This document shows, one piece after another, positions 6,417 to 24,992 of a stretch of 64,000 bases of DNA (positions are counted from its first letter, which is position 1; every line of letters begins with the position of its first letter). The translations under genes and the position numbers were made by a program. The notes below the pieces were generated by a model. It made no database searches, was not told the DNA's origin, and saw only the letters and a list, made by a program, of their open reading frames with translations. This DNA comes from Bacteroidetes bacterium GWF2_33_16 (GTDB taxonomy: Bacteria; Bacteroidota; Bacteroidia; Bacteroidales; UBA12077), in NCBI GenBank assembly GCA_001768565.1, contig MEOE01000013.1:124001-188000 (forward strand), read 5' to 3'.

Positions 6417-7076
6417 ATGCAAAAAACAGCATTGGTTTTTGGTGCCACAGGATTGGTTGGCAGCTATCTTGTAAACGAACTGGTTGAAAATGAAATCTAC
6501 AAAAAAGTAAAGGTTTTTAATCGTACCAAACAAAATTATTCAAACATCAAAATAATTGAAATTATTATTGATTATGACAAGGTAAATGAATATACTCACG
6601 AGTTTAAAGGTCATGATGCATTCTGCTGTCTTGGAACAACTATTCGTAAAGCAGGCTCAAAAGAAAAATTCTTTAAAATAGATCACGATTTACCTGTTGA
6701 AATAGCAAAAATTTGTTCAAATAACGAGGTTAGTAACTTTGTGGCAATATCATCAATTGGGGCAAACCCAAATAGTTCAAACAACTACTTACGTACAAAG
6801 GGTCTGATGGAAACTCATATTCAAGAATTCGATTTCGATCAATTGGCATTCGTAAGGCCATCAATGTTGCTTGGGCCGCGTAAAGAATTTCGATTTGGAG
6901 AAGCTTTCGGCAAAATAGTTATGATTCCGTTTAACTACCTGTTGATTGGAAACTTAAAAAAATACAGGTCGATACATGCCAAAACTGTGGCTAAATCTAT
7001 GCTTCAAATTGCCAATATGCCAATACACAAGTTATTTTTTGAATCGAATGAGCTAATCGAAATTGCTAAAACCTAA
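6417..7076 (+). CDS. NAD(P)-binding Rossmann-fold oxidoreductase (TIP30-like atypical SDR)
   Basis: 219 residues. GATGLVGSYL at the N-terminus is the dinucleotide-binding loop, CLGTT near 72 is the second strand, and the YxxxK pair occurs in NYLRTKG near 125. LAFVRPSMLLGPR and the C-terminal layout follow the HTATIP2/TIP30-like atypical short-chain dehydrogenases, usually annotated as NAD-dependent epimerase or oxidoreductase. Substrate unknown. It starts 63 bases after the small Cys-rich protein and ends 9 bases before a nitroreductase, so the three may be one unit. Confidence 0.85.
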   Translation: MQKTALVFGATGLVGSYLVNELVENEIYKKVKVFNRTKQNYSNIKIIEIIIDYDKVNEYTHEFKGHDAFCCLGTTIRKAGSKEKFFKIDHDLPVEIAKICSNNEVSNFVAISSIGANPNSSNNYLRTKGLMETHIQEFDFDQLAFVRPSMLLGPRKEFRFGEAFGKIVMIPFNYLLIGNLKKYRSIHAKTVAKSMLQIANMPIHKLFFESNELIEIAKT

Positions 7077-7085
7077 AATTAAATA

Positions 7086-7637
7086 ATGATAACAGGACAA
7101 GATTTTCTGGAGATTATCCAACAAAGACAGAGCGACAGAGCATATCTTAATACATTTATAGAAAAAGATAAGATGGAACGAATTATTAAAGCAGCCCATC
7201 TTGCTCCCTCAGCTTGCAATGCACAACCCTGGAAATTTATTGTAGTTGATAATACTGAGTTAAAAAATAAAATTGCCGATTGTACATCAAGTGCCGTTTT
7301 AGGTATGAATCATTTTACAAAACAAGCACCTGTGCACATCATTATTGTTGAAGAAAAAGCAAACTTCACGTCAAGTGCAGGTAGCCTGATAAAAAACAAG
7401 ACTTTTCCACTTATAGATATTGGTATTGCAGCAGAAAATATTTGTTTGCAGGCAACAGCCGAAGGATTAGGAACTTGCATGATTGGTTGGTTCGATGAAA
7501 CAAAAGTTAAGAAATTACTCAACATCCCGAAATCTAAACGTGTACCTTTAATTATTACGATTGGTTACCCAGCGAAAGAAACCAGAGAGAAACGACGAAA
7601 GGATTTAAACCAGGTTTTTAGCTTTAATAGCTATTAG
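7086..7637 (+). CDS. Nitroreductase family protein (FMN-dependent)
   Basis: 183 residues, typical of the short nitroreductase family. QRQSDRAYL near residue 14 and APSACNAQPWKFIVVD near 40 supply the FMN phosphate contacts. DIGIAAENICLQATAEGLGTCMIGWF near 110-135 is the helix and loop lining the flavin. The enzymes reduce nitro compounds, quinones or enones with NAD(P)H; the physiological substrate cannot be told from sequence. It follows the Rossmann protein by 9 bases and converges with an SMR transporter gene. Confidence 0.9.
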   Translation: MITGQDFLEIIQQRQSDRAYLNTFIEKDKMERIIKAAHLAPSACNAQPWKFIVVDNTELKNKIADCTSSAVLGMNHFTKQAPVHIIIVEEKANFTSSAGSLIKNKTFPLIDIGIAAENICLQATAEGLGTCMIGWFDETKVKKLLNIPKSKRVPLIITIGYPAKETREKRRKDLNQVFSFNSY

Positions 7638-7695
7638 AATTGCAAGGGTTTGTGGTATAAGTTATTTAAAAGGATTAACCTTGGTTCTCAATTAT

Positions 7696-14101: not shown

Positions 14102-14470
14102 ATGAAAGATTTAATAATAAAGGAAACTGAAAAAACACCATCTGTATCGCTTGGCACCAATGGAATTCTTAAGATTGAAGGACGATCCATCCCTGAAGAT
14201 GCTGCAAAGTTTTTTAAACCAATACTCGATTGGACAAGAGAATTTACAGCTCCTGAAATTCGAATAGATATAAAACTTGAATATTTTAATACCAGTTCAT
14301 CAAAATTTATTCTTGAAATGTTGCGTCTGATTGAAGGAAATCCAAGCAATGATAATGTTTTGGTAAATTGGTTTTATGAAGAAGGTGATTTAGATGTATT
14401 AGAATCAGGACAATATTTTGAATCCATTATTGGAATTCCCTTCAAATACATTGAATACGAAGAATTATAG
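14102..14470 (+). CDS. SiaC-like regulatory phosphoprotein (DUF1987)
   Basis: 122 residues covering one DUF1987 domain: TPSVSLGTNGILKIEGRS at 12-29, PEDAAKFFKPILDW at 31-44 and the central LEYFNTSSSKFILEML at 59-74. In Pseudomonas aeruginosa SiaC, a threonine in the equivalent region is phosphorylated by SiaB and dephosphorylated by the PP2C phosphatase SiaA, which controls partner binding. Here Thr64-Ser67 is the matching position. The next gene encodes a PP2C-type phosphatase, so the pair probably forms a phosphorylation switch. No SiaB-like kinase or SiaD-like diguanylate cyclase is in the window. A terminator lies between the two genes. Confidence 0.9.
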   Translation: MKDLIIKETEKTPSVSLGTNGILKIEGRSIPEDAAKFFKPILDWTREFTAPEIRIDIKLEYFNTSSSKFILEMLRLIEGNPSNDNVLVNWFYEEGDLDVLESGQYFESIIGIPFKYIEYEEL

Positions 14471-14497
14471 AAAGCTCTTTTTAAAAGGGCTTTTTTA
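14471..14497 (+). terminator. Terminator between the SiaC-like gene and phosphatase gene
   Basis: Stem 14471-14481 with 14483-14493, including G-U pairs, then a T-run. It begins immediately after the stop codon and may limit read-through into the phosphatase gene. Confidence 0.65.
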
Positions 14498-14558
14498 AGC
14501 TTTGTATTAAAAATCCTAACAATAATGATAGTTTTTTAATAAATCGAATAGTACAATA

Positions 14559-16400
14559 ATGACAGCCTCTCCAAAAACAAATATTGTGATTGCAGTTAAA
14601 GGGGCAATGCTTGCAAACAATATCCAGAAAGATCTAGCATCTGAAGATTTTAATATAAAAGTATTCTTAAACGGGAAAGATGCATTTTCATATTTATCAA
14701 GTATTGAAGATTTTAACACGTTTGTAATAAGTACAAACAATTTGCCTGGAATAAAAGGTCTTGATTTAGCTCGAATGCTTAAAAAAGAACAAAAAAAATT
14801 CCCATTTATCTTCTTAATCGATGAAACTTCTGATAAACATACCATAGAAGCTATTAGATCTGAATCATATCATTTTATTGCTCAAACTAATGATATAGCA
14901 AGTGAAATTGCACCTTTAATTAATGATCTTATTCAGCAAAATTATAAACAAAGCGAAGATGAAGATTTAAAAATTTCACTTGATAATTATAAAAAAAGAA
15001 TTAATGATCTCGAACGTGATGTTGATTTTTATGTAAAGCAAGGCGATTTAATAACTAAACAACGTGCAAAAATTCAGAAAGAAAGAGATCAACTGGCACA
15101 GGAGAAATATGAGATCATTAAACAAAAAGAAATAATGGAGGCTGATTTGCAGTTTATCATGAAACAAGGTGATAAAATTGCAGAGCAAAAACATAAAATT
15201 AAAATTCAGCATGATATAGTTCAGCAACAAAAACAAAAAATAACTGATAGTATAGTTTATGCAAAAAGAATCCAGTCAGCTATTTTACCACCAAATAGGT
15301 TTATTCAACATTTATTAGTCGATCATTTTATCTTTTATAAACCACGTGATATTGTAAGTGGCGATTTTTACTGGATAAAACAAGTAGAAGACCGCATTTT
15401 TATTTCTGCCGCCGATTGCACTGGGCATGGTGTTCCTGGAGCGCTAATGAGTATGCTTGGGATAACTTTCCTTAATGAAATTATTAATAAAAACCCAAAA
15501 ATATCAGCTGGTGAAGTACTTGATGAACTGCGAACTCATGTTATCACTTCATTGAGACAGACAGGTAAATCAGGTGAAACTCGCGATGGGATGGATATTT
15601 CACTCTGTATCCTAAACAACAAAACAAAAACTATGGAATATGCGGGTGCCAACAATCACCTTTATATGATTCGAAACAATGAGTTTTCTGAAGTAAAAGC
15701 AGATAGAATGCCTATAGGTATTCATCGTCGTGCAAAAGAAAACTTTACAAATAATATAATAGATATAGTTAAAGATGATGTTATCTATATTTTCTCTGAT
15801 GGTTATGTTGATCAATTTGGTGGTGATGATGGAAGAAAATTTTTACCATCAAACTTTAAAAGACTGCTATTTGATAACCATCAGAAACCTTTCGCTGAAC
15901 AAAGACAGATACTGGAAAACACATTTGAAAGTTGGAGGGGTGAGCATAAACAGCTAGACGATATTTTGGTAATTGGATTTAAAATAGCTTTTGAAAAAGT
16001 ATTTACAAAAGCAAAAGATGTTTATTACTGGGAAGGAAAAACGATATTAATTGCTGAAGATGATGAAGCAAACTTCATGCTTCTTGAAAGAGCATTATCA
16101 AAGACAAAAGTTAATTTGATTCGTGCCGAGAATGGTAAAGAAGCAGTTAAAATTTTTAAATCTACTCCAGGTATTGATTTAATTTTAATGGATATTAGAA
16201 TGCCTATAATGGATGGCATTGAGGCCACTCAGGAAATAAAAGAAATCGATAGTAAAATTCCAATTGTTGTGCAAACAGCATTCACTATGTCGAGCGAAAA
16301 AGAGAAAAGCTTCAAAGCAGGTTGCGATGATTATATCTCAAAACCAATAAATCTGAAAGAATTAATTTCAACAGTAAGTAAATATATCGATAGAGATTAA
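14559..16400 (+). CDS. Pseudo-receiver / coiled coil / PP2C (SpoIIE) phosphatase / receiver
   Basis: 613 residues in four parts. Residues 8-125 have a receiver fold, but the phospho-acceptor Asp is replaced by Thr59 and the conserved Lys is absent, so it is a pseudo-receiver. Residues 135-230 are a charged, heptad-rich coiled coil. Residues 231-475 are a SpoIIE/RsbU-type PP2C phosphatase with metal-binding Asp in VSGDFYW (269), AADCTGHG (286), FSDGYVDQ (414) and QLDDI (467/468). Residues 494-613 are a canonical receiver with EDD (500-502), Asp545 in LMDIRMP and Lys595 in SKP. It has no membrane segment or DNA-binding domain. The DUF1987 protein encoded just upstream is the probable substrate by analogy with SiaA/SiaC. 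The input kinase is unknown. Confidence 0.92.
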   Translation: MTASPKTNIVIAVKGAMLANNIQKDLASEDFNIKVFLNGKDAFSYLSSIEDFNTFVISTNNLPGIKGLDLARMLKKEQKKFPFIFLIDETSDKHTIEAIRSESYHFIAQTNDIASEIAPLINDLIQQNYKQSEDEDLKISLDNYKKRINDLERDVDFYVKQGDLITKQRAKIQKERDQLAQEKYEIIKQKEIMEADLQFIMKQGDKIAEQKHKIKIQHDIVQQQKQKITDSIVYAKRIQSAILPPNRFIQHLLVDHFIFYKPRDIVSGDFYWIKQVEDRIFISAADCTGHGVPGALMSMLGITFLNEIINKNPKISAGEVLDELRTHVITSLRQTGKSGETRDGMDISLCILNNKTKTMEYAGANNHLYMIRNNEFSEVKADRMPIGIHRRAKENFTNNIIDIVKDDVIYIFSDGYVDQFGGDDGRKFLPSNFKRLLFDNHQKPFAEQRQILENTFESWRGEHKQLDDILVIGFKIAFEKVFTKAKDVYYWEGKTILIAEDDEANFMLLERALSKTKVNLIRAENGKEAVKIFKSTPGIDLILMDIRMPIMDGIEATQEIKEIDSKIPIVVQTAFTMSSEKEKSFKAGCDDYISKPINLKELISTVSKYIDRD

Positions 16401-16404
16401 AACA

Positions 16405-16435
16405 AAAAAATCGGGTTCAATTACCCGATTTTTCT
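16405..16435. terminator. Bidirectional terminator
   Basis: Stem 16409-16416 with 16423-16430 (AATCGGGT with ACCCGATT), 6-base loop, A-run before and T-run after. It serves the converging phosphatase and aminotransferase genes. Confidence 0.85.
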
Positions 16436-21367: not shown

Positions 21368-21913
21368 TTAGATAATAAACCATTGTGGAAACAAAAAATA
21401 CAAAATAATAAGTAGAACAGCTGTAAGAATAACAAAAATGATAAAAATCTCGGTGATAAGTATGCCAGATTGTTTTCTTAGAATGAAGTTTTTTTGACTT
21501 AAAATACCCTTAATATTATTTTCAAGACGAAGTGCAAAGTTTTCATTCTTCTTAATTGCAGTATAAACACCATGGTGAAACGCCAGAGAAACTGTATCAA
21601 TATTATCACTATCGGAATACAAAATAACTTCTGCACCTGAGTTAATTGCTTTAATTTTCTTCAGCACATCAATCATGTCAACAGAATTGCCATTTTCATC
21701 AATTTCAAGATGATTTGAGATAAAAACAATATTGACATTCTTTCTTGATGGTTTAAACCTGGCAAAATCATTAATAAAATCCCGGCTGCGCAAATAAATC
21801 TGAATATTATAACTATTCAGCTGATCGGTTTTAGAGATAATCTCTCTTATAAATCCGTCATCATTATCAATAAAGTAAATATATACTCTATCCTTACCTA
21901 TTCTCTTCCTCAT
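21368..21913 (-). CDS. Degenerate receiver domain with C-terminal membrane anchor
   Basis: 181 residues. Residues 10-140 follow a response-regulator receiver fold: strand 1 with YFIDNDDG (acidic pocket), strand 3 NIVFISNHL where Ser66 stands in place of the phospho-acceptor Asp, and strand 5 YTAIKKNE with a Lys at the usual position. Residues 151-173 are one strong membrane helix close to the C-terminus, so the domain would hang on the inner face of the membrane. There is no DNA-binding or enzyme domain. I know no named family of this layout. It lies between htpG and an exported unknown protein, with gaps of 95-150 bases, probably its own unit. Confidence 0.75.
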   Translation of the reverse strand: MRKRIGKDRVYIYFIDNDDGFIREIISKTDQLNSYNIQIYLRSRDFINDFARFKPSRKNVNIVFISNHLEIDENGNSVDMIDVLKKIKAINSGAEVILYSDSDNIDTVSLAFHHGVYTAIKKNENFALRLENNIKGILSQKNFILRKQSGILITEIFIIFVILTAVLLIILYFLFPQWFII

Positions 21914-24177: not shown

Positions 24178-24882
24178 TTATTTCCCCATCAGATTAATGT
24201 CGCTCATGAATTTTTCTTTGTATGCCTTACCAATAGGGATATTTTTTGGACCTTCACTACTTCTAATTAAAACGGCATTGTCTTCAATCCGGTCAATTTT
24301 ACCAATATTAATAATATATGATCGGTGAACACGCTTAAAGATTTCGGAAGGAAGCTGATTCTCAATAGATTTCATTGTAAAATGAATCGTAAATTTTTCG
24401 TTAAAAACAGCAATTATAACATAATTTTCAAGTGCTTCAACCCAAAGAATATCTTGAAACTTAAGCCTTACAAGAGCAGAATTCTTTTTAACATAAATCT
24501 CGTCTGTCTTCTTCTTACTTTTTGATTCGTGTATCTTCTTTGCTTTTGAAACAGCTTTAAAGAATCGGCTATAATTAATTGGTTTTAGCAAATAATCTGT
24601 TACATCGTAATCGAATGCATTTATTGCATATTTTTCTTTGGATGAAATAATAATTACTTGTGGAAGATTATTTAAAGTATTTAAAAAATCTATTCCATCC
24701 ATTTCTGGCATTTCTATATCAAGAAAGATAAGATCAATTTCTTCAGTAAAAATTTCAGATTTATTAATTGCCTGTACGGCATTTTCAAAGGAGTACTTAA
24801 GTTCAAGGAATTCAGTTCTACTAACAAATTCTTCAACTACTCTTCTCGATAAAACATCATCATCAATAATTATACAATTCAT
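24178..24882 (-). CDS. LytTR-family response regulator
   Basis: 234 residues. The N-terminal receiver (1-120) has all key residues: IIDDD (acidic pocket), Asp54 in FLDIEMPEMDG, a switch Ser in IIISSKE and Lys in LLKP. The C-terminal LytTR DNA-binding domain (about 130-228) shows ILWVEALENYVII, FKRVHRSYIIN and the expected final strands. LytTR regulators bind imperfect direct repeats and usually pair with a LytS/YehU-type histidine kinase; no kinase gene is adjacent, so it is an orphan here. A terminator separates it from the next gene. Confidence 0.93.
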   Translation of the reverse strand: MNCIIIDDDVLSRRVVEEFVSRTEFLELKYSFENAVQAINKSEIFTEEIDLIFLDIEMPEMDGIDFLNTLNNLPQVIIISSKEKYAINAFDYDVTDYLLKPINYSRFFKAVSKAKKIHESKSKKKTDEIYVKKNSALVRLKFQDILWVEALENYVIIAVFNEKFTIHFTMKSIENQLPSEIFKRVHRSYIINIGKIDRIEDNAVLIRSSEGPKNIPIGKAYKEKFMSDINLMGK

Positions 24883-24992
24883 CCTTTATTCTATATAAGT
24901 TCTTTTATCAAAAATATAAAATATCTTGAAATTATTATTGATCAAGGGAATAAAATCAATAGATAAATATACGAAAAAGAATGATTAAAGGT

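Follow-up and report, generated by a model that had tools for sequence, protein, structure and literature searches.

A SiaC-family gene beside a receiver-bearing PP2C phosphatase gene in a Bacteroidales genome: candidate two-component input to a SiaABC-type partner switch

How might a two-component signal reach a protein of the SiaC family? The question is raised by two neighbouring genes in a stretch of 64,000 nucleotides from Bacteroidetes bacterium GWF2_33_16, hereafter the window. SiaC is known in detail from a single system, where it activates a diguanylate cyclase. In Pseudomonas aeruginosa, SiaC phosphorylation is switched by the kinase SiaB and the PP2C phosphatase SiaA (PMC7278518, PMC7647112), the latter predicted to be a membrane protein (PMC7278518). 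In the window, a siaC-like gene is followed by a phosphatase gene of a different build, with the features below (window coordinates).

14102..14470, + strand: siaC-like gene, encoding a 122-aa SiaC-family phosphoprotein (PF09345)
14559..16400, + strand: phosphatase gene, 613 aa, with a degenerate receiver, a coiled coil, a PP2C (SpoIIE) domain and a receiver
14559..14948, + strand: degenerate N-terminal receiver, residues 1-130, with Thr59 at the acceptor position
14979..15284, + strand: predicted long coiled-coil helix, residues 141-242, ahead of the PP2C domain (from the structure model)
15387..15983, + strand: PP2C/SpoIIE domain, Pfam span 277-475
16044..16376, + strand: intact C-terminal receiver, Pfam span 496-606, with D501, D545, T573 and K595
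16406..16433, + strand: terminator-like hairpin after the phosphatase gene (1 found against 0.9 expected in shuffles, weak alone)

The first gene had been described in the initial annotation as encoding a SiaC-like protein, and this description holds. Its product matches PF09345 over profile positions 1-120 with 107.4 bits against a cut-off of 24.5, and two sequences of P. aeruginosa SiaC are its sole PDB matches at E <= 1 (E 2.6e-12). Residues N63-T64-S65 align with N67-T68-S69 of P. aeruginosa SiaC, of which T68 is the phosphoacceptor according to PMC7647112 and PMC8457831. The motif Asn63-Thr64-Ser65 is unchanged in all 12 aligned SiaC orthologs, and Thr64 within it is the predicted acceptor of the window protein. 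Across the 15 SiaC proteins of the same genome, the acceptor site Asn-[Thr/Ser] is kept without exception, with Thr in eight and Ser in seven.

The second gene product is matched by Pfam to SpoIIE (66.5 bits) and, in two stretches, to Response_reg. The nearest PDB sequence to its PP2C is the PP2C of SiaA, 6k4e (E 5.1e-41), and the match starts at residue 203, ahead of the PP2C domain; a fold search also returned 6k4e as the nearest fold (E 4.3e-19). In an alignment of 15 proteins, composed of 14 of the 18 phosphatase orthologs (four short or partial ones were omitted) and a paralog from locus L028, the PP2C residues D269, D286, G289, D414 and D468 are invariant. A PP2C with metal-binding Asp residues that is closest to SiaA supports the assignment to the SiaA class of phosphatases. 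The membrane-bound N-terminus of SiaA has no counterpart here: the front of the window protein matches a receiver, and no membrane segment was found by hydropathy (highest 19-residue mean 1.38, versus 2.66 in a transporter control), in agreement with the earlier view of a soluble enzyme. The rear receiver, previously called complete on account of Asp545 and Lys595, is confirmed as such, since none of D501, D545, T573 and K595 varies among the 15 aligned proteins. The structure model is of modest confidence (pLDDT 69, pTM 0.44): domains are recognisable, packing is not trusted and a receiver-PP2C contact is not visible. It does contain the long helix 141-242 ahead of the PP2C, in keeping with the proposed coiled coil. 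Within the helix, an internal repeat (window 15027-15278, residues 157-240) carries KQGD twice, 42 residues apart, and beats 300 of 300 shuffles; KQGD occurs in 19 of 76 distinct PP2C open reading frames, all 19 of which are orthologs of the window phosphatase.

Both genes lie on the + strand with 88 bases between them, and a hairpin scan found no terminator-like site in that gap; a promoter scan gave 14 sites against 14.9 expected. A phosphatase ortholog is present in 18 of 20 genomes of the genus, own genome included, and the two that lack it have completeness values of 78% and 70%. The fetched flank reaches SiaC in 12 of these 18 loci; in the other six the stretch ended before SiaC, with the flank filled by other genes or cut by a contig end. 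When named genomes were searched with the SiaC alignment, 40 loci were obtained. Of these, 17 are orthologous, at 84-93% identity, and every one of the 17 carries a title that marks it as a Bacteroidales or Bacteroidetes MAG, for example GWA2_31_9b or GWB2_32_14. In 15 of the 17, a PP2C gene lies downstream of siaC on the same strand, and the contig breaks off in the remaining two, L073 and L079. Conservation of the pair had been named as a check, and the siaC-phosphatase pair is indeed conserved in the genus. The usual row consists of siaC, a stand-alone receiver gene (13 of 17) and a gene for a PAS-like domain, coiled coil, PP2C and receiver. In some rows an extra gene is inserted; the one tested, at L039 3738-4502 upstream of the receiver gene, encodes a DUF4476 protein, and genes of similar appearance stand between siaC and the receiver gene in some other orthologous loci. 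The separate receiver gene is absent in the own genome, in G005 and G019, and also in L071. In G019 the phosphatase is split into two open reading frames, which may be a MAG error. The window itself holds further receiver-like genes on the - strand. One, at 24178-24885, scores 45.5 bits with our own receiver profile and has no link to the pair. The other, at 21368-21913, encodes a 181-aa protein that is receiver-like by eye, has no Pfam match at 0.01 and shows high hydrophobicity towards its C-terminus (19-residue mean 3.29 at 156).

The front domain is less uniform. Residues 1-130 alone match Response_reg with 33.1 bits (cut-off 30.2), and the counterpart in L036 reaches only 25.7 bits. The earlier placing of Thr59 at the acceptor position is confirmed by alignment. 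In the three-genome alignment that position is T, N or D, and all three distinct sequences, as read from the alignment, are without the acidic pair and the conserved Lys; read in this way, Thr59 is one state of a decaying acceptor site. The degenerate front receiver is thus present in the window protein, as had been stated, but it is not general: it occurs in 3 of 18 orthologous loci (own, G005, G019), and 13 of the 18 have, by reading, a PAS-like domain in its place, which rules it out as a common ortholog feature. The label PAS-like derives from similarity among the orthologs and from a weak PAS_4 match of the one protein run through Pfam (L038, 21.6 bits, below the cut-off of 23.1). There is a suggestion, and no more, that the front receiver arose when the PAS-like domain was replaced by fusion with the stand-alone receiver encoded upstream. 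A profile of the front receiver has stand-alone receivers as its ten best non-self matches (15.8-20.0 bits), with an unrelated receiver (15.3) and a rear receiver (14.4) close behind, and one stand-alone receiver scores just 0.1.

From domain anatomy and precedent, we infer that the pair probably supplies the phosphatase arm of a partner switch of the SiaABC type, with a two-component phosphorelay as its input; the pairing of enzyme and substrate, the control by the receiver and its direction, the acting SiaB and the target belong to the same inference. A histidine kinase would phosphorylate Asp545 of the rear receiver, and the resulting change would reach the PP2C and alter how fast it strips the neighbouring SiaC of the phosphate on Thr64. 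That phosphate would be restored by a SiaB-type kinase (DUF6272) whose gene lies outside the window, and unphosphorylated SiaC would bind and switch on a partner protein. The front domain, a degenerate receiver here and PAS-like in most relatives, may act with the coiled coil to govern dimerisation or to receive a second signal. As for direction, HsbR of P. aeruginosa is a receiver-PP2C-kinase protein that sets the phosphorylation of HsbA, and its phosphorylated form triggers HsbA dephosphorylation (PMC6482189), which suggests by analogy that receiver phosphate would activate the window PP2C.

The rest of the genome supplies candidates for the other components. The kinase was said to be missing from the window, which is correct in that neither the window nor the 17 orthologous loci contain a gene labelled as SiaB (DUF6272), nor the locus a known effector; the proposed genome search for such a kinase nevertheless gave seven DUF6272 matches in six genes, alongside 15 SiaC and 21 SpoIIE matches. 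No histidine kinase was labelled in the stretches of the 17 orthologous loci with a profile built from one sequence. All six SiaB genes adjoin a SiaC gene of their own, and nine of the 15 SiaC genes, that of the window included, are without an adjacent SiaB. The absence of SiaB beside the window SiaC counts against the partner-switch reading, as does the lack of a labelled histidine kinase in the orthologous loci. A second pair (L028) consists of SiaC and a TPR-PP2C-receiver phosphatase with a hydrophobic segment and the same catalytic residues intact. Locus L025 combines SiaC, SiaB, a TPR-PP2C protein and a second PP2C with a receiver of 30.6 bits (cut-off 30.2; degenerate by eye), as well as a divergent class III cyclase whose receiver-like front lies below the cut-off. 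In L030 (6585-7688), a SiaB gene encodes two DUF6272 domains in one protein, and similar two-match frames occur in other relatives.

The dedicated pair has a rival in which the phosphatase is a hub acting on several of the 15 SiaC proteins. The neighbouring SiaC would then be just one of its substrates, or would chiefly serve for docking, and the signal would spread over the network. The nine SiaC genes that stand apart from any SiaB make cross-action likely, and the window SiaC is more conserved (85-93% identity) than the phosphatase (56-75%, 13 aligned orthologs), as expected of a protein with several partners; the adjacency kept in 15 of 17 loci argues instead for a dedicated pair, and we hold broad action of this kind to be rather unlikely. 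Conversely, the window SiaC could be a substrate of other enzymes, given the 21 SpoIIE matches of the genome. That the two genes are adjacent merely by descent and do not interact would fit a locus in which no SiaB or known effector was found, yet gene order is kept across the genus despite insertions between the two, and the genome holds a second SiaC/PP2C-receiver pair, which makes this explanation highly improbable.

A further alternative concerns the input rather than the partner: control could run chiefly through the front domain and coiled coil, leaving the rear receiver as a phosphate sink or docking platform. Other phosphatases of the SiaA/PP2C class are controlled through N-terminal parts, and here the KQGD coiled coil is kept beside a front domain that can be PAS-like, a degenerate receiver or absent altogether. 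Against this stand the receiver chemistry residues, invariant in all 15 aligned proteins, and the occurrence of N-terminal receiver-PP2C forms near SiaB-SiaC elsewhere, so that we consider such a minor role for the receiver decidedly unlikely. In other lineages a receiver-PP2C gene adjoins SiaB-SiaC in L142 and L143; in L101 the distance is one gene, and in L097 the receiver-PP2C gene lies some 3.4 kb upstream. In L141 (5662-7539), receiver, PP2C and DUF6272 are fused in one protein directly beside siaC, a fusion that is the strongest comparative hint, drawn from sequence, of a real two-component input to SiaA and SiaB functions.

If the partner-switch reading is correct, the question passes to the target. 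GGDEF gave no match in the own genome, whose assembly is rated 100% complete, with a search that was positive in 8 of 14 control genomes; a SiaD-type cyclase is therefore an unlikely target. Among 59 genomes (the own genome and 58 relatives, which carry up to 20 SiaC matches each, as in G040), GGDEF was matched in nine, all within the genus, and 29 of the 38 SiaC-bearing genomes, some of them incomplete, are without a match. GGDEF as a hidden target in the relatives was considered and set aside: in the one locus opened (L136 6638-7231, genome G016), no SiaC was seen beside a 197-aa GGDEF protein, whose neighbours resemble starch-use genes by eye. Some SiaC genes of the own genome lie near class III nucleotide cyclases (L029 6964-8782, L025 7728-13435), one with an HD domain and one with the receiver-like front, and these cyclases are possible SiaC targets.

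Gene order also points to a transporter. A TerB-ABC-ABC2 protein of about 1030 aa (ABCG-like) has four copies in the own genome (L023 2322-5408, L024 8177-11257, L034 7353-10475, L135 6473-9505), three of which adjoin SiaC; the fourth is preceded by genes for a hybrid histidine kinase and a receiver-histidine kinase. At these loci a gene resembling a lipoprotein gene by eye precedes or follows the transporter. SiaC, DUF6272, a SiaA-like phosphatase (E <= 1e-40) and the transporter (E <= 1e-60) occur together in 38 of the 59 genomes, representing 15 of 36 genera, and the remaining 21 have none of the four. One best transporter locus per genome was fetched from 30 of the 38 genomes (L105-L134): 28 of the 30 have adjacent SiaC and SiaB, a count that is biased because the query was the operon copy and the best matches are orthologs of that copy, so that it shows conservation of the row and not SiaC beside every transporter copy. 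A PP2C gene is also present in 26 of the 28 (not in L127 and L134), and the two misses, L117 and L120, begin at a contig edge. The row PP2C-SiaB-SiaC-transporter reproduces the siaABCD order of Pseudomonas, the transporter occupying the siaD position. Saccharicrinis aurantiacus (L082) has siaB-siaC as well, and in the 6 kb fetched to each side of it no gene was labelled as the transporter.

In a sample of 198 genomes across the phylum, SiaC was found in 13 and a transporter match in seven. Five of the seven matches are full-length, and in all five genomes the transporter lies beside a SiaC by coordinates; the other two cover the ABC core only, in genomes without SiaC. Eight of the 13 SiaC genomes gave no transporter match, with at most four candidates scored per genome, which rules out a phylum-wide SiaC-transporter link. 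We put forward as a tentative possibility that in a branch of the Bacteroidota SiaABC has been rewired from c-di-GMP to the TerB-ABC-ABC2 exporter as the usual effector: unphosphorylated SiaC would bind the exporter and turn export on, and the window pair would be an extra arm feeding two-component signals into the same network. In the open-licence literature (titles and abstract starts), no report on point was found for a TerB/ABC transporter with SpoIIE in Bacteroidetes.

Loci from the eight transporter-negative SiaC genomes share another element. In eight of the nine opened (not in L140), the gene after siaC encodes a common helical module, in varied contexts.

L138, 4494-5258: module before GGDEF (by Pfam)
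L139, 5687-6523: module before GGDEF (by sequence)
L137, 5591-6655: module before a histidine kinase
L144, 5467-6516: module before PP2C
L141, 4797-5273: module before a hydrophobic segment
L142, 4906-5163: module alone
L143, 5003-5302: module alone
L146, 4628-4861: module alone

The only independent match to the module is in L103, because the profile was built from those eight loci: in a Candidatus Aminicenantes MAG, SiaC, the module (53.9 bits) and GGDEF form one protein (6496-7674) beside a second SiaC. The best PDB match of the profile that is not designed by name is SiaD, 7e6g, but the match is weak (E 0.054; 1.4 for the best single stretch). Two stretches aligned with 7e6g are ISD..Q segments, which by our own placing fit the SiaC-binding residues of SiaD, given as S50-Q54 and S82-Q86 in PMC8457831. 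Our reading of the module, resting on these alignments, is that of a putative portable SiaC-docking stalk. The module profile (A4), run without a positive control, matched 0 of the 59 genomes of the window's order. The KQGD repeats of the window phosphatase were considered as a SiaC-docking motif and rejected, the same profile giving no match to that protein.

The window pair gains interest from its setting, a genome with an extensive SiaC network in which no c-di-GMP synthase was detected. An order rich in SiaC and poor in GGDEF makes it testable what else SiaC controls, and gene order points to an ABC exporter, class III cyclases and stalk-module proteins as candidate targets.

How does the pair compare with known systems? 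RssB of P. aeruginosa (3f7a, 3eq2) likewise joins a receiver and a PP2C in one protein and ranks directly behind SiaA in the fold search, with an alignment of about 480 columns; with only 15% identity and an rmsd >20, the domains match and the arrangement does not. We know of no link between RssB and SiaC. For Campylobacterota, genome analysis has led to the proposal that a PP2C-kinase with a receiver acts on a STAS protein (PMC9239204). PMC3610818 describes SypE of Vibrio fischeri, a regulator of the small switch protein SypA that contains receiver, PP2C and kinase domains; unlike the window protein, SypE has a central receiver, a fused kinase and a STAS substrate. The nearest likeness in principle is to HsbR-HsbA of P. 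aeruginosa and CrsR-CrsA of Shewanella, in which, according to PMC6482189, the phosphorylation state of a small switch protein is set by a PP2C under receiver control. HsbR combines receiver, PP2C and kinase, and HsbA is an anti-sigma factor antagonist, whereas the window phosphatase has its intact receiver at the C-terminus, no fused kinase and a SiaC-family neighbour. The principle of a receiver-controlled PP2C acting on a small switch protein is thus already established by HsbR-HsbA; for a receiver-PP2C acting on a SiaC-family substrate, no prior report was found in the open-licence literature.

Compared with SiaABCD of P. aeruginosa, the window locus has no SiaB or cyclase, the genome has no GGDEF match and so no SiaD, and the phosphatase, unlike SiaA, carries receivers and no membrane segment that could be seen. 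It resembles SiaABCD in its SiaC-family protein with the N-T-S motif, in a PP2C closest to SiaA and in the SiaB-type genes of the genome, and it offers a clear example of a locus where SiaC phosphorylation may be under the control of a two-component receiver.
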